The notes under the pieces were generated by a model. It saw nothing but the letters and a program-made list of their open reading frames with translations. It had not been told where the DNA came from and ran no database searches. A DNA stretch of 64,000 bases. It comes from Candidatus Palauibacter polyketidifaciens. GTDB taxonomy: Bacteria > Gemmatimonadota > Gemmatimonadetes > Palauibacterales > Palauibacteraceae. This document shows positions 27,247 through 37,741 of this stretch, piece after piece. Every line of letters starts with the position of its first letter. Position 1 is the first letter of the stretch. The stretch covers positions 1-64,000 of the forward strand of contig NZ_CANPVO010000033.1 in the NCBI RefSeq assembly GCF_947581785.1, written 5' to 3'. The position numbers and the translations under genes are program-made.

Positions 27247-28029
27247 TTAACGGTCGCGCGTCGTGATCACGAGAGCGCCGATGTATCCGTCGCCCCCGTA
27301 GCGCGCCGAAGCTTCCGTACGCGACAGGATCTCGATCCGGCTCACGTCGTCGATGGAAAGCTCGCGAATCGCGTTCACGCCATCGCCTTCGCGCCTCTCG
27401 TTGATGCGTACTTCCATCACCTGCTCCCGGAACGACCGCCACGAACTCAACGTCACCGACGTGAGGAGGATGACCTCGCCGAGCGTGCTCATGCGGTCGA
27501 ATTTCAGGAGCGAGTGTTGGCGCAGCAGCTCGTACACGCTCATCTCCGGAAGGTCCACAAGATCCTCGGCGCGGATGACTTCGGAGCCCAGGATCCGGCT
27601 CCGGCTGCCCCCTGCGGCCAGAGATCCGACCTCCTCCCTCCGTCGGGGGTCCGCAGTCAGTGAGAGGGAAAGGTCCTGCTGGGCCAGCGTGACGGTCGTG
27701 GCGTACGGGAGGGCTTCGCCTCGCCGGTCCCCGAAGATGGCCCGCAACGAGACCTCCATTTCCCGCGGCAGCCCGCAGATGGCGTAAAGACCCTCCATGC
27801 CGACCTCGGCTTCGACGCTTTGACGGGCGTTGAACTGCACCCAACTCGCCGCCACTGTCGCGCCGGGTACGATCGTCCCCGCTTCGGGATCCGTCACGTA
27901 GCCCACGACGGCCGCCTCCGTCTCCGGATCCCCGCCCGGGCAGAAATCGGCGAAGGACTGGGCGGCCGCGGAGTTCGCAACCACGAGCATCAGTGCCGGC
28001 GCGGAAAGGCGCGCAAACGAGTACGGCAT
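27247..28029 (-). CDS. Secreted carboxypeptidase-regulatory/TonB-plug protein lacking a barrel, copy 1
   Basis: 260 residues with a signal peptide ending AAAQSFADFC. Residues about 30-130 form a carboxypeptidase-regulatory-like beta sandwich (AAVVGYVTDPEAGTIVPGATVAASWVQ, GLYAICGLP). Residues about 150-260 resemble a TonB plug: SEVIRAEDLVDLPEMSVYELLRQ and the terminal SRIEILSRTEASARYGGDGYIGALVITT. The stop follows exactly where the plug ends, so no barrel is encoded, and no barrel sequence follows. Two cysteines (DFC, ICG) may pair. It is a close paralogue of the next gene 23 bp upstream in the same orientation. Function is unknown; roles as a periplasmic adaptor or in signalling are possible. 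Confidence 0.8.
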   Translation of the reverse strand: MPYSFARLSAPALMLVVANSAAAQSFADFCPGGDPETEAAVVGYVTDPEAGTIVPGATVAASWVQFNARQSVEAEVGMEGLYAICGLPREMEVSLRAIFGDRRGEALPYATTVTLAQQDLSLSLTADPRRREEVGSLAAGGSRSRILGSEVIRAEDLVDLPEMSVYELLRQHSLLKFDRMSTLGEVILLTSVTLSSWRSFREQVMEVRINERREGDGVNAIRELSIDDVSRIEILSRTEASARYGGDGYIGALVITTRDR

Positions 28030-28052: not shown

Positions 28053-28832
28053 CTAGCGGCCCCGCGTTGTAATCGAGATCGCTCCGACGAAACCGTCTCC
28101 GCCGTAACGTGCGGAAGCTTCGGTACGCGTCAAAATCTCGATCCGGCTGATCTCATCGATCGACAGGTCGCGGATCGCCGCGACGCCGTCCACCTCCCGC
28201 CGCTCGTTGATCCTCACCTGGACGGACTGCAGGCGACCGGCGCGGAGACTCGAGGTCGCGGACGTGAGGAGGATGACCTCCCCCAGCGTGCTCATGCGGT
28301 CGAATCTGAGGAGTTGGTGCCGGCGCAGCAGTTCGTACACGCTCATCTCGGGCAGATGAAGGAGGTCCTCCGCGCGGATGACCTCCGAGCTGAACGCCTG
28401 GCCCCTTCCGCCGCCAGCCGCCAGCGATCCGACCTCCTCCCTCGTCGCGGGCTCCCTGGTAAGCGAAATGACGAGATCCGCCTGGGCCAGCAGAGTGGAT
28501 GTCGCGTAGGGAACGGCCTCTCCGCGCCGGTCTCCGAGGATGGCCCTCAGCGTGACCTCCGTGCCCTGCGGCAGCCCGCAAAGCGCATAGAGGCCCTGAA
28601 TGTCCGTCTGTACCTCGATTCGCTGGCGGGCGTCGTCCTGCACCCAGCTCGCGGCCACGGTCGCGCCGGCTACGATCATCTCCGCTTCGGGATCCGTCAC
28701 GTAGCCCACGACAGCCGCTTCCGTCGCCTCGTCGCCGGCGGGACAGAAGTCGACGAACGACTGGGCCTGGGCGGTGTTCGCGATGACCAGAAACAGGGCA
28801 GGCGCCGGAAGGCGCAGGAGCAAGTGTCGCAT
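28053..28832 (-). CDS. Secreted carboxypeptidase-regulatory/TonB-plug protein lacking a barrel, copy 2
   Basis: 259 residues from ATG 28832 (AGAGGA upstream). It has the same architecture as the neighbouring copy: signal peptide (ALFLVIANTAQAQ), regulatory-like sandwich (AAVVGYVTDPEAEMIVAGATV, GLYALCGLP), then the plug-like end SRIEILTRTEASARYGGDGFVGAISITT and stop. The two genes match along their full length with scattered differences, showing a tandem duplication. Fragments of further relatives survive at 35167-35275 and 36184-36309. The upstream 222 bp are shared with the divergent PhoX-like gene. Confidence 0.8.
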   Translation of the reverse strand: MRHLLLRLPAPALFLVIANTAQAQSFVDFCPAGDEATEAAVVGYVTDPEAEMIVAGATVAASWVQDDARQRIEVQTDIQGLYALCGLPQGTEVTLRAILGDRRGEAVPYATSTLLAQADLVISLTREPATREEVGSLAAGGGRGQAFSSEVIRAEDLLHLPEMSVYELLRRHQLLRFDRMSTLGEVILLTSATSSLRAGRLQSVQVRINERREVDGVAAIRDLSIDEISRIEILTRTEASARYGGDGFVGAISITTRGR

Positions 28833-29054
28833 GTCGGTTCCTCTCGTCTGCAATGGTTCTCTCGGCTGTGGCACGCGCGTGCGTGCCCGGTGCCGATGGA
28901 TGTCGCGGTGCGAGCGACCCACCGACCTCTTAGGATACTCCCCGTCCGATTTGCGTTTAGTCCGGGGCCCGGTCGGGAAGTCGACGACCCCGGTCAATGC
29001 TTATACTCGGCAACATGCCGCGGGTGCCGCCCCGAGGCAGTCACGGAGGAGCCG
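28833..29054. repeat. Divergent promoter region, partly duplicated at about 36310-36449
   Basis: The region lies between the plug-only gene (-) and the PhoX-like gene (+). Parts are repeated almost exactly upstream of the broken PhoX copy: ggtgcgagcga, ttaggatactc, ttgcgtttagtccg, tactcggcaac and cggaggagccgctga. The second copy lacks about 40 bases between gtttagtccg and atactcggcaa. The conserved blocks may mark promoter elements; TTATACT near 28999 resembles a -10 box for the rightward gene. Confidence 0.5.
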
Positions 29055-30428
29055 CTGAGCAAGATCGACAGACGAGATTTCGTGCGCCGCGCCGGACGCT
29101 GGGCGGGGGCCGCGGCGCTCGCGCCTTCGCTCTCGGGTCTCGCCGCATGTGCCGGCCCCGCAGCCGCGTCCCCGCGCCGGACGGCTCGCGGACCCGCCGG
29201 ATACGGACCCCTGCGCCCCGCGGGCCCGGAACTCGCCCTTCCCGAGGGGTTTTCCTATGCCGTCCTCGGGGTGGAAGGCCGTCCGATGTCGGACGGTCGG
29301 CCCACGCCCCGCGCGCACGACGGAATGGGACTCTTCCAGGTGAGCGACGATGTCGTCCGCCTGGTGCGAAACCATGAAGATCAGGATCCCCCCGGCGTCG
29401 CGGTTCCGCTGGTCCCCCCCGAACTGGCGTACGACCCCCTGGCGGGCGGGGGCACGACGACGCTGGAAGTCCGGATCGAGGCGGACGGGAGTCCGGTCCT
29501 CCTGCGGGATTTCGTGAGCGCGGGGGGGACGATGATCAACTGCGCGGGGGGGACGACGCCGTGGCGCAGCTGGCTGACGTGCGAGGAAACGACCTTCGGA
29601 CCGGGGCGCGGCTGGACGGTGCCGCACGGGTATGTGTTCGAGGTCCCCGCCGATGCGGACGAACCGGTCCAGGCGGAGCCGATACGGGACATGGGACGGT
29701 TCACGCATGAGGCCATCGCGGTGGATCCGGCGACGGGTTTCGTCTACGAGACGGAAGACTACAATCGTCGCTCGGGGTTCTATCGCTTCCGTCCCCATAC
29801 TCCGGGCGTTCTCCGGGACGGGGGCGTTCTGGAGATGCTCGCCGTGCGGGGGGGGCCGCAGGTGGATCTCCGCACCGGCCAGCAGCCGGGGGTGTGGCGT
29901 GAAGTCGAATGGGTGCCGATCGAGAACCCCGACCCGCCCGAAGCCGAACGTAGCGCGTCCACGGTCTGGACGGAGGGGTTCGAGGCGGGCGGGGCCCGGT
30001 TCTCCCGGCTCGAGGGCTGCTGGTACGCGGACCGGAGCATCTATTTCCATGCGACGAACGGGGGCGACGCCCAACTCGGCCAGGTCTGGCGGTACGTACC
30101 GGAGGACGAGGCGCTTGCGCTCGTCTTCGAGTCGCCGTCGGAGGACGTACTCTCCGGTCCGGACAACCTCACGGTGAGTCCCCGGGGCGGGATACTCATC
30201 TGCGAGGACAACTCCGGGGAAACGCACCTCCGGGGATTGTCGCCCGAGGGGGAGATCTTCCCCTTCGCCCGAAATATCCTGAACGTGCGCGAGTTTGCCG
30301 GCGCCTGCTTCACGCCCGACGGCCGGACGCTCTTCATCAACGTCCAGGGAGACACGATCTCGTTGGGGGCGGGGAACCTCGGCCAGACGTTCGCGATCTG
30401 GGGACCCTGGGAGCGGGGGCCGCTCTGA
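29055..30428 (+). CDS. PhoX-like DUF839 protein, Tat-exported
   Basis: 457 residues from a proposed CTG start at 29055, which has CGGAGGAG five bases upstream; no ATG, GTG or TTG occurs close by in this frame. The N-terminus DRRDFVRRAG followed by a hydrophobic, alanine-rich segment is a twin-arginine signal. The body matches the PhoX/DUF839 propeller family: PRAHDGMGLFQ, VRLVRNHED, CAGGTTPWRSWLTCEET, GRFTHEAIAVDPATGFVYETEDYN, GCWYADRSIYF, ILICEDN and the terminal FAIWGPWERGPL. PhoX enzymes are calcium- and iron-dependent alkaline phosphatases, but short members such as this may have other activities. Its stop overlaps the CTG of a truncated rlpA. A broken duplicate lies at 36450-37088. Confidence 0.82.
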   Translation: MSKIDRRDFVRRAGRWAGAAALAPSLSGLAACAGPAAASPRRTARGPAGYGPLRPAGPELALPEGFSYAVLGVEGRPMSDGRPTPRAHDGMGLFQVSDDVVRLVRNHEDQDPPGVAVPLVPPELAYDPLAGGGTTTLEVRIEADGSPVLLRDFVSAGGTMINCAGGTTPWRSWLTCEETTFGPGRGWTVPHGYVFEVPADADEPVQAEPIRDMGRFTHEAIAVDPATGFVYETEDYNRRSGFYRFRPHTPGVLRDGGVLEMLAVRGGPQVDLRTGQQPGVWREVEWVPIENPDPPEAERSASTVWTEGFEAGGARFSRLEGCWYADRSIYFHATNGGDAQLGQVWRYVPEDEALALVFESPSEDVLSGPDNLTVSPRGGILICEDNSGETHLRGLSPEGEIFPFARNILNVREFAGACFTPDGRTLFINVQGDTISLGAGNLGQTFAIWGPWERGPL

Positions 30429-30625
30429 GCCGGCGCAGCGCCGCGTTCGGCGTGGCGCTCGCTGTCGCGCTATCGGGCCAGGCCTGCGTGTGGTCCGTGC
30501 CGCTCGCGACGACGCCGTCCGCCGACCCGCCGCCCTTCGCCGACCGGCCGCTCTACGCCGTCGGCTGGACGCAGATCGGCGCGGCGGGGGTCTCGACCGT
30601 CTGCGGGCCGTGCTCTCGGAGTTGA
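30425..30625 (+). pseudogene. Truncated rlpA copy (signal peptide and linker only)
   Basis: Bases 30421-30531 are identical to 37081-37191, and similarity continues with a few mismatches to about 30580. The frame starts at CTG 30425 overlapping the PhoX stop (CTGA), encodes the lipoprotein signal of RlpA (ALSGQAC) and the proline-rich linker, then runs into unrelated sequence at GWTQIG and stops at 30625. The catalytic double-psi barrel and SPOR domain are missing, so this is a remnant of a duplication whose intact copy is at 37085. Confidence 0.75.
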
Positions 30626-31178: not shown

Positions 31179-32192
31179 ATGGCTTGGCTCGTTACCATAA
31201 CCGGTTGGTTTTTGGTCGGCGCAATGGTTGTTGAGCCTGCCGAGACAGTGCATCGACAGTCACGGGACACGCGACTGTGTTTGGAGCAAGTCTATCAAGT
31301 CGATCTTCCCGATGATTTTGCACCCATTGGTCTAACCATTTCGAGCGATATTGGACCTGAACCAATCATTACGCTGTGGTCCCGATCGGCGCTATATCTG
31401 TTCAGTGTCTCGTCACTCGAGCCGACTCTGCGACGCGTCACTAACGCCGTACCACTCAATATCGACCCACTTTCGGCAGTAGTCACTGAATGGGACGGGG
31501 AAAGTCATCAGGTACAGCTGTTCGATGCTTCAGATGGATCGATATGGACGCTGGACGTAGCAACAGCAAACGTGGCCAGGTTCACAAGATCCGCCGAAGC
31601 GTCTTTGGCATCAGGTGCAACTCGAGATGCCGGCGGTTGGGTTCGGGCGCACAAAATCGTAGACCTGGCTGCGGATACTATGGGAATAACTCTAGTCAGG
31701 ATGGACCAGCAACTTCCGTCCGGATACGTCGCCGATTCCACCTTGTCCACCGGAGGACGACGCGGTGTAGATCGGATTCTACATATACGACCGGGGAATC
31801 ATGACGGTCTTGTGGTCAGCGAAGCCGCGTTCCCGTTTGCCACTGTCGTGTTTATGCACACCGGCCAGGAGCTGTGGCGGAGCTACGCGGATCCCGGTCG
31901 GTTGCGTGTGCTGCTAGAGGAACAAGATTTGCGTTACGTGGTCGCCACGCCGGCGATTGCACTGGGCGATGGAGTGTTGTCGACATTCGTGGGTCTCCGA
32001 TCAGGCCTGAGGGTGTCGGCTGTCCGGTCGCCGGGCGGCGGGGAGTCAAGGTATGCGCTTATCGGGAGCGACATGGCCTTCCTGGCGGGCATTTCGGAGC
32101 ATCGTTTGTTGGTGGCAACAAGGTATGACATGCCCCATGAGTTACTTCTTTATCGCTGGAGTTGGATCGACGAAAGCCGGAGTTGTGCCTGA
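31179..32192 (+). CDS. Hypothetical exported protein with propeller-like repeats
   Basis: 337 residues from ATG 31179; an in-frame TTG at 31116 would lengthen it by 21 residues but lies in the repeat. The N-terminal MAWLVTITGWFLVGAMVV is a single hydrophobic segment (signal or anchor). The rest is beta-rich with short repeating phrases (ITLWSRSALYLFSVSS, QVQLFDASDGSIWTLDVATANV, LLVATRYDMPHELLLYRW), suggesting a propeller. I do not recognise a named family. GC is clearly lower than in flanking genes (27 of 60 bases in 31141-31200 by my count). It ends 25 bp before the cysteine-rich gene and is probably co-transcribed with it and the next two genes. Confidence 0.6.
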   Translation: MAWLVTITGWFLVGAMVVEPAETVHRQSRDTRLCLEQVYQVDLPDDFAPIGLTISSDIGPEPIITLWSRSALYLFSVSSLEPTLRRVTNAVPLNIDPLSAVVTEWDGESHQVQLFDASDGSIWTLDVATANVARFTRSAEASLASGATRDAGGWVRAHKIVDLAADTMGITLVRMDQQLPSGYVADSTLSTGGRRGVDRILHIRPGNHDGLVVSEAAFPFATVVFMHTGQELWRSYADPGRLRVLLEEQDLRYVVATPAIALGDGVLSTFVGLRSGLRVSAVRSPGGGESRYALIGSDMAFLAGISEHRLLVATRYDMPHELLLYRWSWIDESRSCA

Positions 32193-32217
32193 CCGGCCCA
32201 AACCCAAGGAGGTCAGT

Positions 32218-32655
32218 ATGAGCCAGCGTGTCGTTGCTGCGATCCGCCGTAGTGCGCTTGTCCTCGTGATTGCTGCGATAGGATCGGTCACCACTCCCAG
32301 GCCGGCGGCCGCCCAGATGGGCTGCGTGTCCTGCTGGTTGGATTTGTGGGGGGGTGGCTTCGACTGCCTGACGTGGTATGTGGGTTATGAGGATTGCTTC
32401 GCCTTCGGTAGATGGTGCTTGGAGGGCGGTGGCATTTGCGAAGAAATCATGCAATTGGACGTTGCAGAAGATGGCTTCGTATACTCGCGCGACGCAGGAA
32501 GTGAAGACGCAAGAAGTGAAATAGGCAGCCTGGAGAGGAGCCGGAGGCCGGCGGACCGAGCGACGTCACGGACATGTGACGGCATCCTCCTCAGGGCTCG
32601 GGAGACGGACGCCGCCATATCCCGGGTGGCCGCGCCGGCTTTCTTGACTCTTTGA
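32218..32655 (+). CDS. Small cysteine-rich secreted protein of unknown function
   Basis: 145 residues from ATG 32218, with a strong AAGGAGG ribosome-binding site. A signal peptide (LVLVIAAIGSVTTPRPAAAQ) is predicted to leave about 112 residues. The mature N-terminus is rich in cysteine, tryptophan, tyrosine and glycine: GCVSCWLDLWGGGF, DCLTWYVGYEDCFAFGRWC, GGGICEEIM. That is seven cysteines within about 45 residues, then a charged, less ordered tail with one more cysteine. I do not recognise the family. Small Cys-rich secreted proteins next to six-bladed propellers occur in Bacteroidota as well, but no homology is claimed. It lies between two propeller-like genes in the low-GC island and is likely part of one operon with them. 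Confidence 0.65.
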   Translation: MSQRVVAAIRRSALVLVIAAIGSVTTPRPAAAQMGCVSCWLDLWGGGFDCLTWYVGYEDCFAFGRWCLEGGGICEEIMQLDVAEDGFVYSRDAGSEDARSEIGSLERSRRPADRATSRTCDGILLRARETDAAISRVAAPAFLTL

Positions 32656-32807
32656 GATACGGGTCGTCTTCCAGGTACGCTACCTTGTCGACGTTTGCCG
32701 GAAACTGCGGCCGGGGTCGGGTGGTGTGTCGTCCGGCTGAGGAGGACACGCCGCCCGATCGTCGACGGGGAGGAGTTCAACAAATCCCGGGCGAGGTATC
32801 GTTGACC

Positions 32808-33998
32808 ATGTTACGTGGCGTTTTTTTGTTTGCCGTCGCCGTCTCACCATTTGGGAGTGCAGCGGCGCAAGATTCGGATCTGTTCCGTTCGTCGGCGTCG
32901 CCGCAACTCAAGCTCACGCTGGGTGTGGAAATCCAATCAAGCGTCAATGGTACTACGACGTTGGCGGAGCCCCGGCAAATATTGGCGAGTTCCAGTGGCA
33001 TTTATATATTGGATCCGCTGATGCCAGGTGTCACGCGGTTCGACCGGCAGGGGGAATGGATCGGCACGATCGGCGAGAAGGGAGAGGGCCCGGGGGAGTT
33101 TCGCAGCCCAGATTCGATGGGATGGCTTTCCGACACGTTATGGGTGGTGGATCGTGATCTTGGTCGACTGTCCCTTTTTGATCGAGACATGGTCCACGTC
33201 AACTCCGTGAGTTTCCGAATCGTTACCGGCACGACCCTGGCAATGCCCCGTGCGGCGGTGGGACCGTGGGTGTTGAGTTTACCATACATTTCAGCGAACG
33301 CGAAGGCTCGTGAAGATTCGGTTCCTCTGCTCGCATTCGACAGAGGCGGAAATGTGCGAGACACGCTTGCGTGGATCGCGGGCGGACGATCGACGGTGTC
33401 CGTCACGATCACGCGACAGGGTGAGGATCGACAGGTCGTATCGGTTCGGAACCCATTCGACACACGAGGCCTGATGGCGCACGACCCCCAGAGCCGGTGG
33501 GTGTACATTGGCACCTGGGGAACTGATTCGAACGACAAGTCGTACTTGAAATTGGTGAAATTGGCTGCGGACGGCGATACCGTGAATGCTGCGGAGTTGC
33601 CTATAGAACGAGTGCCTGCTACGGGCGGCGACGTTCGCGCGCATGCAAGGAGACTCCGGGACGAAGCTCCGGAGTTGCTGCGACAGCGACTGTCGGTGTC
33701 GACATTGACGCGCGCGTTCTTGAGCCAGGTTCCAGATCCATCGATAAGCGGCGTTGATGCGATGCTTGCCAGCGAGGAGGGAACGATCTGGTTGCGGAGA
33801 ACGATGTGGATCGATGAAGCTGCCTCGGAACGGTGGCTCGCGTTTCGCTGGCACGAAGGTTTAGTGGGGCACGTCGTCCTGCCGATGGGCGAGTCCATGC
33901 TTGCGACCACGGGCGGGATGTTATGGAGTATAAGCCACGACGCGCTGGGGCTCCCATCGATCAAGGGCTGGAGTGTGACATCGTATCCGGGGAACTGA
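32808..33998 (+). CDS. Secreted six-bladed beta-propeller
   Basis: 396 residues from ATG 32808 (GAGG upstream). Signal peptide MLRGVFLFAVAVSPFGSAAAQ is followed by NHL/6-bladed repeats: GIYILDPLMPGVTRFDRQGEWIGTIG, GEGPGEFRSPDSMGWLSDTLWVVDRDLGRLSLFD, VPLLAFDRGGNV and MLASEEGTIWLRR. This is the type often annotated as a 6-bladed beta-propeller in Gemmatimonadota and Bacteroidota; function is unknown. Three bases separate its stop from the next start, so the two are translationally linked. Composition is intermediate between the island and the genome average. Confidence 0.75.
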   Translation: MLRGVFLFAVAVSPFGSAAAQDSDLFRSSASPQLKLTLGVEIQSSVNGTTTLAEPRQILASSSGIYILDPLMPGVTRFDRQGEWIGTIGEKGEGPGEFRSPDSMGWLSDTLWVVDRDLGRLSLFDRDMVHVNSVSFRIVTGTTLAMPRAAVGPWVLSLPYISANAKAREDSVPLLAFDRGGNVRDTLAWIAGGRSTVSVTITRQGEDRQVVSVRNPFDTRGLMAHDPQSRWVYIGTWGTDSNDKSYLKLVKLAADGDTVNAAELPIERVPATGGDVRAHARRLRDEAPELLRQRLSVSTLTRAFLSQVPDPSISGVDAMLASEEGTIWLRRTMWIDEAASERWLAFRWHEGLVGHVVLPMGESMLATTGGMLWSISHDALGLPSIKGWSVTSYPGN

Positions 33999-34001
33999 CA
34001 A

Positions 34002-35093
34002 ATGGGTGAACGGATTCTGGCTCGCGGACGACGAGCGATGGGGTTGGTCCCGCTTGGCATCCTGGGCTTTGCCACGGCAAGTCAGGGTCAAGAAGTCTCG
34101 GTGTGCGACGGACGCCCCGCTCTCCAGATCGCCGTAACGGATGCGTCAGGGCAGATGCCCCTGCCACAGGCGACCATCTTGGTACGCTGGACGGACGCCG
34201 TGCGGAAGCCTGTAAGACAACCTGCGGAGGTGGATGGGCGATTGTTTCTTTGTGCGCCCCGAGACGCGGGCACGGCGACGATATGGGCTGAGTTCGGTGA
34301 TGGTTCGAGCGAGCAAGTAGATGTCGCCCTTGAGTCGGGGACGGTCACGGACGTGGCCCTTCCGATTTCATTCGGTGAGGTGGCGACGGGTCGAATCGTA
34401 GGTCGCATGGACGATCTGTCCACAGGCGATCCAGTGGCTGCTGCAGCGGTGTCGGTTGTCGGCCAGACGGAAGTCGTAACGACCAACCGGCGGGGTCGGT
34501 TCGTGCTCAGCGGCGTGCCGGTTGGAGAGCATGAGCTGTCCGTGCAACGGATCGGCTACGCGACCCTTCGACACACCGTCTCCGTGCATAGAGGAATAAC
34601 CACGGACGTAGAGATTGACCTGGTGCCCGATCCCCTGGAACTGCAACCGATCGTGGCGTCTGTCACGAGGCCGCGTCGACTCGAGATCAACGGGTTCTAC
34701 GACCGCAGGTATTGGGGTGAGCTGACCGGAGGCGGTGTCTTCATCACGGCCGAAGACATCGACCGCCGGAGTCCCGCTCGTCTGACGCAGATGCTGGGCG
34801 AGGTGTCGGGGGTCCGCGCGAGTTGCAACGATCTTCGTGGTAGTCGGTGCCTGTTGTACAGTTCGCGATTGTCCGATGGGTTCTCGCCGGGAGGCTGCCA
34901 GATGAGTGTATATCTCAACAACAGTCCTGTTATCCGTCGAGGGTCCCCTTCATCGTACCAGGATTCGGTGAACGATCTGGTCCTACCCACCGAGGTAGCG
35001 GGGATCGAGGTCTATCGCAGCGCGTCCGAACTGCCAGCCGAGTTTGCGGGATACGATTCACAGTGCGGAGTCGTCGTGATCTGGACCAAATAA
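34002..35093 (+). CDS. Regulatory-like and TonB-plug protein without barrel, long form
   Basis: 363 residues from ATG 34002; ATG at codon 13 is an alternative. After a signal peptide there are two beta-sandwich modules of carboxypeptidase-regulatory type (LQIAVTDASGQMPLPQATILVRW; GRIVGRMDDLSTGDPVAAAAVSVVGQ with GRFVLSGVPVGEHELSVQRIGY). A plug-like domain follows (GGVFITAEDIDRRSPARLTQMLGEVSGVRASC, CQMSVYLNNSPVI, VAGIEVYRSASELPAEFAGYDSQCGVVVIWTK) and then the stop. There is no barrel, as in the genes at 27247 and 28053, though the sequence is more distant and carries extra cysteines in the plug. It ends the likely four-gene island operon. Confidence 0.75.
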   Translation: MGERILARGRRAMGLVPLGILGFATASQGQEVSVCDGRPALQIAVTDASGQMPLPQATILVRWTDAVRKPVRQPAEVDGRLFLCAPRDAGTATIWAEFGDGSSEQVDVALESGTVTDVALPISFGEVATGRIVGRMDDLSTGDPVAAAAVSVVGQTEVVTTNRRGRFVLSGVPVGEHELSVQRIGYATLRHTVSVHRGITTDVEIDLVPDPLELQPIVASVTRPRRLEINGFYDRRYWGELTGGGVFITAEDIDRRSPARLTQMLGEVSGVRASCNDLRGSRCLLYSSRLSDGFSPGGCQMSVYLNNSPVIRRGSPSSYQDSVNDLVLPTEVAGIEVYRSASELPAEFAGYDSQCGVVVIWTK

Positions 35094-35166: not shown

Positions 35167-35275
35167 TCGGCCCGTCGTGATCACGAGGGCCCCGACATCG
35201 AGATTGCCACCGTAGCGCGCGGACGCTTCGGTGCGCGAGAAGATCTCGATTCTGCTCACTTCATCGACTGACATC
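35167..35275 (-). pseudogene. Remnant of a plug-only protein (C-terminal end)
   Basis: On the minus strand this encodes SVDEVSRIEIFSRTEASARYGGNLDVGALVITT, the conserved end of the plug-only proteins at 27247 and 28053. There is no upstream part, signal peptide or start. On its other side the sequence switches abruptly to a transposase start. Confidence 0.7.
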
Positions 35276-35305
35276 TGGAACCTGGCAGACCGGAAGGAGG
35301 TCGGC

Positions 35306-35517: not shown

Positions 35518-35955
35518 ATGAGTACGGTTACACATGGAAGACACGGGCTGGCGACGGTTTGGGCGATTGCTCTGACAGGGCTGGTTGCCGCTTGTGGAGG
35601 GGACGGAACGACGGTCCCGGAGCCGGTAGGCGCGGCGGGTACGTGGCGTCTCACGGAGATCGGCGGCAGACCGATGCCAGTCGATATCGGGACGGGAAGC
35701 GATTGTGTGACGATAACTCAAGGGTCTTTGACGATTCGTACCGATGCCTCCTATGAAGACAGCGTGTCTCTTCGCGCCTGTGGTACGCTTAACACATCGA
35801 TGACGATCGCAATTACGGGTACATGGAATCAGGACGGCAATCTGGTTGATTTTGTCCCCGCTGAGGGTTGCGGTAACCGTGCGGTAGTTACCGCGACTTC
35901 GTTGCGGGTAGCTCGTGATTGTAGTCTAGGTGTACCGGTCGTGTATGCTCGGTAG
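35518..35955 (+). CDS. Small lipoprotein of unknown function
   Basis: 145 residues from ATG 35518. A lipoprotein signal ends at ALTGLVAACGG (lipobox cysteine 26), followed by a short linker and a compact beta-rich domain: GTWRLTEIGGRPMPVDIG, CVTITQGSLTIRTDASYEDSVSL, MTIAITGTWNQDGNLVDFVPAEG. The GTWRLTEIGGRP opening resembles META- or lipocalin-like lipoproteins. Three later cysteines may form disulfides. It stands alone in the island between transposase debris and the duplicated block, with the lower GC typical of the island. Confidence 0.65.
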   Translation: MSTVTHGRHGLATVWAIALTGLVAACGGDGTTVPEPVGAAGTWRLTEIGGRPMPVDIGTGSDCVTITQGSLTIRTDASYEDSVSLRACGTLNTSMTIAITGTWNQDGNLVDFVPAEGCGNRAVVTATSLRVARDCSLGVPVVYAR

Positions 35956-36183
35956 AGAGCTATGAATTTCGCCAACCGGACGTTGTGGACGGGCGTGGAT
36001 AAGCGATAGCACCCATCGGAGAGTTTGTGTTTGCGGGGTTTCTGATCGTATCTGCGATCAGCGCATTTCTGAGCTACGGGAAGAAACACTACGAGGACTG
36101 TATGTAATCCCCGGACTCGTGGCCGAATGCCGATGGAGGTCATCGAAGCCAACGAGGTGTCGTCAGGCCGGTGAACCTGTCGC
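35956..36183. other. Gap without a convincing gene
   Basis: Only a short frame from GTG 36027 to TAA 36107 is visible. It encodes a hydrophobic piece (VFAGFLIVSAISAFLSYGKK) that could be the tail of a lost membrane protein. No promoter or repeat is recognised. Confidence 0.4.
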
Positions 36184-36309
36184 ACCGACGAAGCCGTCTC
36201 CGCCGTAGCGCGCGGACGCCTCGGTGCGCGTCAGGATCTCGATCCGGCTGATCTCATCGATCGACAGGTCCAGGACAGGCCCCGGAGGGTGCAAGAGGGT
36301 GCCGCATGT
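36184..36309 (-). pseudogene. Internally deleted copy of the plug-only gene
   Basis: Bases 36184-36270 match the 3' end of the gene at 28053 (plug end RIEILTRTEASARYGGDGFVG) almost exactly. The sequence then jumps, near caggacaggcccc, to the region around that gene's start (gccgcatgtcg). About 540 bp of the middle is missing. Together with the broken PhoX copy that follows, it shows that the plug-phoX-rlpA block was duplicated as a unit. Confidence 0.7.
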
Positions 36310-36449
36310 CGAACTCTCTCCCGTCCGATGGTTGTCGCGGTGCGAGCGATCCGCCGACGTTTTAGGATACTCTCCGTCGGACTTGCGTTTAGTCCGCCCA
36401 TACTCGGCAACGTGCCGTGGGTGCCGCCCGAGGCGTGACGGAGGAGCCG

Positions 36450-37088
36450 CTGAACGGGATCGACAGACGAGACTTCGTGCGCCGCGCCCGGCGGTGGGCC
36501 GGGACCGCGGCGCTCGCGCCTTCGCTCGCAGGTCTCGCAGCGTGTGCCCGGCCGGCGGCCGCGTCCACGACCCGGACGGCTCGCGGATCCGCCGCGTACG
36601 GACCGCTGCGCCCCGCGGGTCCGGAACTCGCCCTCCCCGAGGGGTCTTCCCACGTCCTCCTCAGCGTGGAGGGCCGTCCGATGTCCGACGGTCGGCCCAC
36701 GCCCCGCGCCCACGACGGAATGGGACTCTTTCAGTGAGCGACGACGACGTCCGCCTGGTGCGGAACCATGAAGACCAAGACCCGCCCGGCGTCGCGGTCC
36801 CGCTGGTGTCCCCGGAACTGGCGTCCGCTCCCCTCCGGGCGTCCTCCGGGATGAGGGCGTTCCGGAAATGCTCGCGGTGCGGGGGGCGCCGCAGGTGGAT
36901 CTTCGCACCGGCCAGCGGCCGGGGGCGTGGCGCGAAGTCGAATGGGTGCCGATCGAGAACCCCGATCCCCCCGAAGCCGAACGCAGCGCAACCACCGTGT
37001 GGATGGAGGGGTTCGAGGCGGGCGGGGCCCGGGGGATCTCGGCCAGACGCTCGCCATCTGGGGACCCTGGGAGCGGGGGCCGCTCTGA
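36450..37088 (+). pseudogene. Broken duplicate of the PhoX-like gene
   Basis: The start region is nearly identical to 29055 onward (CTG 36450, with an alternative GTG at 36435), including the twin-arginine signal. At about 36735 one base is missing, giving an early stop after GMGLFQ. The match resumes in another frame (VRLVRNHEDQDPPGVAVPLV), then about 390 bp are deleted near 36835, and a second deletion near 37032 joins GFEAGGAR directly to the end of the gene (GQTLAIWGPWERGPL). The final TGA at 37086-37088 is kept and overlaps the rlpA start. Confidence 0.8.
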
Positions 37089-37741
37089 GCCGGCGCAGCG
37101 CCGCGTTCGGCGTGGCGCTCGCTGTCGCGCTATCGGGCCAGGCCTGCGTGTGGTCCGTGCCGCTCGCGACGACGCCGTCCGCCGACCCGCCACCCTCCGC
37201 CGACCCGCCGCTCTACGCGGTCGGCTGGACGCAGACCGGCATCGCCTCGTGGTATGGGGAGCCGTTTCACGGCCGGACCACGGCGGCCGGCAACACCTAC
37301 GACATGGATGCCATCTCCGCCGCCCACCGCACGATCCCGTTCGGGACCCGGATCCGCGTGGACAACCTCGACAACGGGCGCTCCATCGACCTCGACGTGA
37401 CCGACCGCGGCCCCTTCGTGCCCGGCCGCATCCTGGACCTGTCCCGGGGGGCGGCGAGGGAACTCGAAATGATCGGGCCGGGTACGGCGCGGGTGCGGAT
37501 CACCGTCATCGGGACGGCGACCCCGGTCTCCGCGCGCGGCGGCTGCGTCGTCGTCCAGGTTGCGTCCTTTCGGGAGCGCCGGAACGCCGAGGCGAAGCGG
37601 CAGGAAGTCGTGCGGGCGGGATTCGAAGCCGCGATCGAGCCGTACCAAGACATGTACCGCGTCGTGGCCGGCCCATTCGCGGATGAGCCGGCGGCCGGGC
37701 GCGCGCGCGAAACGCTCGGCGGGTTCATGCGCCGTTGCTGA
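37085..37741 (+). CDS. rlpA: RlpA-family septal lipoprotein with SPOR domain
   Basis: 218 residues from a proposed CTG start at 37085 overlapping the (pseudo)PhoX stop as CTGA; this start gives a normal lipoprotein signal ending LSGQAC. A proline-rich linker leads to the double-psi barrel (GIASWYGEPFHGRTTAAGNTYD, AAHRTIPFGTRIRVDNLDNGRS, VTDRGPFVPGRILDLSRGAA) and a C-terminal SPOR domain (CVVVQVASFRERRNAEAKRQEV to RVVAGPFADEPAAGRARE). RlpA proteins cleave denuded peptidoglycan at the septum, and the SPOR domain binds such glycans. The intact copy is the right-hand one of the duplication, while its upstream partner phoX is broken here. From the stop to 37952 (211 bp) I see no gene. Confidence 0.87.
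   Translation: MSRRSAAFGVALAVALSGQACVWSVPLATTPSADPPPSADPPLYAVGWTQTGIASWYGEPFHGRTTAAGNTYDMDAISAAHRTIPFGTRIRVDNLDNGRSIDLDVTDRGPFVPGRILDLSRGAARELEMIGPGTARVRITVIGTATPVSARGGCVVVQVASFRERRNAEAKRQEVVRAGFEAAIEPYQDMYRVVAGPFADEPAAGRARETLGGFMRRC

Follow-up and report, generated by a model that had tools for sequence, protein, structure and literature searches.

A small, predicted secreted cysteine-rich protein with beta-propeller partners in a recurring gene set of Gemmatimonadota

A four-gene operon of Candidatus Palauibacter polyketidifaciens is one case of an unnamed gene set that recurs across Gemmatimonadota. Its core comprises three genes, encoding in order a beta-propeller-like protein (P1), a small cysteine-rich protein (CRP), and a six-bladed beta-propeller (PROP); judged by their sequences, these are export-type proteins encoded in one transcriptional direction and inherited as a unit. 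It is tentatively proposed, with somewhat less than even confidence, that the operon represents a conserved P1-CRP-PROP set in which oxidized CRP docks on the propellers to form an envelope or secreted complex for recognition or delivery. The main rivals to this assembly are a role of CRP in antagonism between bacteria and a role in signaling.

The operon and its insertion site

The window, that is, the whole stretch of DNA analyzed here, spans 64,000 nucleotides of a 3.2 Mb Gemmatimonadota genome, with the operon on contig C33 (G000:C33). Its features relevant to this work are as follows.

28891..30600, + strand: left flank copy, with an intact phoX-like gene (PF05787, 4.8e-74) and a truncated rlpA-like start; repeats D1, D4, D5, and D7
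31179..32192, + strand: P1, probable exported beta-propeller-like protein, 337 aa (genus orthologues, AF2 model, Foldseek)
32200..32217, + strand: strong Shine-Dalgarno sequence (AAGGAGG) before CRP, seen in the sequence; relatives also have purine-rich sites
32218..32655, + strand: CRP, small, predicted secreted Cys-rich protein, 145 aa (alignments A1 and A6, phylum search, Cys parity, tail position)
32808..33998, + strand: PROP, exported six-bladed beta-propeller of the DUF5128 type (PF17170, PDB profile matches, congener orthologues)
34002..35093, + strand: plug protein, with CarboxypepD_reg and TonB-receptor plug domains and without a barrel (PF13620, PF07715)
36325..37741, + strand: right flank copy, with a truncated phoX remnant and an intact rlpA-like gene carrying DPBB and SPOR domains (repeats, domains)

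A preliminary description of this DNA, made from the letters alone, had reported four secreted proteins in a row with atypical composition and a very strong ribosome site before the smallest of them. The four plus-strand reading frames and the gaps of 25, 152, and 3 bp between them are indeed present, the operon proteins begin with hydrophobic N-termini of the signal type, the operon genes have a GC content of 0.56-0.61 versus 0.685 for the window, and the AAGGAGG motif accounts for the ribosome site. Most genes of the relatives' operons are likewise lower in GC than their surroundings. On its 5′ side the PROP frame remains open as far as 32652 and there overlaps the stop codon of CRP. Beyond the plug gene on its 3′ side, and still inside the low-GC stretch, a 145 aa exported lipoprotein-like protein is encoded at 35518-35955, for which a Pfam search returned no match.

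The operon sits between two diverged phoX-rlpA copies whose closest relatives differ, the left copy being nearest to congener G014 and the right rlpA copy to G006/G010, as if one of them had arrived in foreign DNA. The region of the left copy is contiguous, and the site uninterrupted, in 11 congeners, and those congeners that bear the operon carry it on contigs other than that of the phoX-rlpA site. For the genome of the window, the earlier description of the operon as an island is upheld by its low GC, its insertion between duplicated flanks, and the uninterrupted sites in congeners. The operon was likely gained through recombination with congener DNA.

Five genomes preserve the CRP frame and its cysteines at an identity of about 30%, which argues for its translation. 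A second genome of the same species points the same way, with two synonymous changes in the CRP gene and none that is non-synonymous, although these numbers are small. CRP is 100% identical in a public contig of Gemmatimonadales bacterium SB0661_bin_41. A chance open reading frame as the source of CRP was set aside after a control scan: a strict search for frames with a signal peptide and at least six Cys recovered only CRP itself from 180 kb of control DNA versus 14 frames from 76 kb around relatives of P1.

Anatomy of the cysteine-rich protein

CRP consists of a signal peptide, a head with six cysteines (C36-C74), and a tail with a single one (C120). The preliminary description had placed seven cysteines within about 45 residues; the protein is Cys-rich as stated, but only six of them (C36, C39, C50, C60, C67, and C74) are clustered, within 39 residues, and the seventh lies apart at residue 120, the 26th from the end. 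The only invariant columns of alignment A6 are C36, C74, C120, and G86. Among 41 distinct CRPs, the head contains six (22 cases), eight (13), or ten (1) cysteines, and these 36 proteins each have one further Cys in the tail. The tail Cys occupies position 23, 26, or 27 as counted back from the C-terminus in 33 of the 41. Many members share the tail pattern R-x-C-x-G-x-[IV]-V-x-R-x-Y-S ... R-x5-[IL]-x-[IL]. Two members have five head cysteines and one in the tail, so that all of their cysteines could pair.

The even number of head cysteines suggests closed disulfides, and the odd Cys of the tail suggests a bond to another chain. Together with the signal peptides, the even head counts suggest that CRP is a disulfide-rich secreted protein. 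Searches with CRP of Pfam, NCBIfam, and the PDB returned no relatives. A structure prediction from four sequences gave an unusable model (pLDDT 41.6), and for this reason any docking of the CRP tail is a guess. The identity of CRP as a defense gene was considered and set aside; PADLOC models recognized no family among the five proteins tested.

The propeller partners

The first gene had been described as propeller-like, and this is supported with moderate confidence. P1 has no Pfam match, only spurious NCBIfam matches, and no sequence relative in the PDB. Its AF2 model from four sequences (pLDDT 72, pTM 0.70) is all-beta, and with this model Foldseek retrieves NHL and WD40 propellers at a TM score of about 0.5. 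Orthologues in four congeners are 37-39% identical to P1, and its cysteines C34 and C336 are invariant across the genus.

The third protein is a six-bladed propeller, as had been claimed, of the DUF5128 type. PROP exceeds the curated cut-off of PF17170 (23.1 bits, cut-off 22.9), although the match covers one short stretch only, and its copy in a second module of the same genome reaches 30.7 bits. In the PDB, NHL propellers are retrieved by a PROP profile, and orthologues in congeners are 40-42% identical. A simple lipobox rule is satisfied by 5 of 32 propellers and 1 of 19 P1 proteins in the set compared; since most fail this rule, membrane anchoring of P1 or the propellers is not claimed. The host genome contains 33 propeller profile matches, few of them with an adjoining Cys peptide, and the many propellers without CRP indicate that these proteins have other uses as well. 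One cluster, at L094:3653-12147, encodes seven adjoining exported proteins of the propeller type or similar to it, without Cys peptides.

Recurrence within the genus and the upstream regulator

A CRP search of relatives found the protein in four congeners (G001, G004, G007, and G011), at 30-32% identity to the CRP of the window, and all four share the gene order P1, CRP, propeller, plug. Presence of the operon within the genus is patchy. A second module in the host genome itself, on contig C42, contains a P1-like protein, CRP, a DUF5128 propeller, two CarboxypepD_reg proteins, and a regulator. In the four congeners a regulator gene is located directly 5′ of P1, its product having a receiver-like N-terminus and a C-terminal helix-turn-helix; in the C42 module it is located 3′. 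The regulator is absent from the window operon, and a copy hidden elsewhere in the window was considered and set aside.

The recurring regulator is an argument for reading CRP as a secreted signal or sensor ligand, with the propellers as receptors and the AraC-like regulator, through its receiver-like N-terminus, responding to CRP. Such a role would also fit other sets of a Cys peptide and a propeller, which are preceded by genes for an ECF sigma factor and a zf-HC2 anti-sigma factor. This role is nonetheless quite unlikely: the window operon has no regulator and none is conserved throughout the family, no transmembrane link between propeller and regulator was seen, and the Pfam matches of the regulator fall below the cut-off (for the L026 regulator, 22.9 bits versus 33.6 for HTH_18).

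Recurrence across the phylum

A profile built from 18 CRPs was searched at E <= 0.01 against 395 sampled Gemmatimonadota genomes from 138 genera, and found CRP relatives in 48 of the genomes and 22 of the genera, the weakest of these matches being possibly false. Of the loci from this search, 24 outside the first genus group were examined; on the strand of CRP, a propeller-type gene follows immediately in 23 of them and a P1 match precedes in 13. This set is not wholly independent, because some of its loci were themselves sources of profile seeds and the neighborhood of P1 or of a propeller was where some seeds first came to light. A wider set comprised 35 CRP matches: a propeller gene follows CRP in at least 29, and P1 or a propeller precedes it in 19, with genes that often overlap or nearly touch. 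Failure of the small protein to recur beside propeller or plug partners would have told against the preliminary description; its recurrence with propeller neighbors across the phylum instead strongly supports an uncharacterized secreted Cys-rich protein that has propeller partners. Relatives of either propeller type were absent from a plasmid collection. Among the papers listed by literature searches on NVEALA, Gemmatimonadota six-bladed propellers, small Cys-rich secreted proteins, and plug proteins without a barrel, none described the P1-CRP-propeller set.

The distances of CRP and PROP are correlated (r = 0.82, n = 32, p about 0.0005), which shows joint inheritance rather than contact, as the common descent of linked genes also yields such a correlation. 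Among the 18 complete P1-CRP-propeller triads compared, the corresponding values are 0.68 for CRP and P1 and 0.83 for P1 and PROP (n = 18, each p about 0.0005).

Genomes carry several divergent CRP paralogues, and those examined each have their own propeller. Along with the patchy distribution in the genus, this would be expected if CRP were a disulfide-rich toxin directed at bacteria or other competitors, with a variable head and a constant delivery tail, and if the propeller served as periplasmic immunity protein or carrier. With cysteines excluded, the head is slightly more variable than the tail (identity 0.18 versus 0.23), yet so small a difference is no strong evidence for a toxin. CRP matches no toxin or defense family, and it is accompanied by two propellers rather than one immunity-like protein. 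A toxin of this kind is considered unlikely.

Plug proteins without a barrel

The fourth protein had been described as a plug without a barrel, and the domain searches agree. It matches CarboxypepD_reg (PF13620) at 2e-15 and Plug (PF07715) weakly at 0.0025 (18.8 bits, cut-off 23.9), and its C-terminus (...GVVVIWTK), the usual junction of plug and barrel, ends the protein at residue 363. The 22-strand beta-barrel of TonB-dependent transporters is absent from this protein, from the following reading frames, and from the congener copies, which occur singly or up to three in tandem and are 46-51% identical; in G007 the plug gene is broken into fragments. The domain order resembles the N-terminal portion of Oar-type transporters (CarboxypepD_reg, Plug, and barrel), which differ by having the barrel. 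In Myxococcus, the Oar-type TonB-dependent transporter Oar is required for PopC secretion (PMC6434023). Lacking a barrel, the plug protein cannot by itself be a transporter. As a partner of CRP, a role given to it in the preliminary description, it is optional and is found mainly within the genus. The regulator is optional too, neither being universal in the CRP set.

The host genome appears to encode a large family of plug-only proteins. Two tandem barrel-less CarboxypepD_reg and Plug proteins adjoin the island on the minus strand (27247-28029 and 28056-28868), the second reaching 24.0 bits for Plug (cut-off 23.9), and remnants of a plug-type gene are located on the other side at about 35187-35282 and 36180-36275.

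Comparison with other cysteine peptides and propeller enzymes

In Bacteroidota, TolB_like proteins (PF15869) neighbor NVEALA peptides (PF14055). CRP is similarly secreted, Cys-rich, and followed by a six-bladed propeller, and it could be asked whether the CRP-PROP pair is the Gemmatimonadota form of this pairing by descent. Another propeller of the host genome, which follows a short Cys peptide on L093, matches TolB_like at 4e-15, and the PROP of the window does so weakly (0.026). Yet none of 18 CRP members matches the NVEALA profile at E <= 0.1, and that profile, positive in a Bacteroides control, gave only a match of 0.156 at an unrelated place in the host genome. CRP also differs in being longer, in its constant Cys-containing tail, and in usually being preceded by a second propeller-like gene. 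As CRP has no NVEALA match, the resemblance is one of layout and not of membership, and common descent is very unlikely.

A propeller encoded beside a small Cys-rich exported protein also recalls methylamine dehydrogenase and quinohemoprotein amine dehydrogenase; by this analogy, CRP would supply a propeller-based redox enzyme with its small, disulfide-rich subunit. This is highly improbable and was set aside: the few invariant positions of alignment A6 do not include the Trp pair that gives rise to the quinone cofactor, maturation genes were not recognized by eye among the called neighbors, and CRP is without a PDB match.

Shorter secreted Cys peptides also precede propellers in the host genome, some of them downstream of genes for an ECF sigma factor and a zf-HC2 protein. 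At L093:1426-5711 and L091:6525-9652, genes for an ECF sigma factor, a zf-HC2/TPR protein, a secreted Cys peptide of 67-68 aa, a TolB_like-type propeller, and a small protein follow one another, and this is a second kind of Cys-peptide and propeller set in the genome. Very short secreted Cys peptides, in tandem pairs, stand ahead of a propeller gene at L091:3628-4119 and L028:1407-2014.

Proposed assembly and implications

CRP is most likely an oxidized periplasmic or secreted ligand that would assemble with the propellers. In the proposed assembly, the operon proteins would first reach the periplasm through Sec, where CRP would be oxidized after export and its head would fold with three or four disulfides. 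The constant tail may then dock on one or both propellers, leaving the head exposed, and the leftover Cys may form a covalent dimer or a bond to a partner. The resulting envelope or secreted complex would recognize or deliver something, with the head as its business end. In most congeners carrying the set, the upstream AraC-like regulator would control it, and the barrel-less CarboxypepD_reg and plug proteins, as optional accessories, may connect the complex with TonB or with a receptor barrel. A bolder version of this proposal is rather doubtful. In it, CRP would represent a new class of disulfide-bonded secreted proteins, with a Cys head that varies and a tail that stays constant and bears one free Cys, and would form on the two co-encoded propellers a phylum-specific envelope complex for recognition or delivery that has no described counterpart.

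Through this analysis, an anonymous small open reading frame becomes a defined protein family with partners, extending to as many as 22 genera in a phylum whose members are mostly uncultured. The family follows a clear rule for its cysteines, keeps a fixed order of genes, and has several paralogues in each genome, which provides concrete pairs to express. The CRP sets may also partly explain the abundance of six-bladed propellers in these bacteria, as seen in the 33 profile matches of the host genome.
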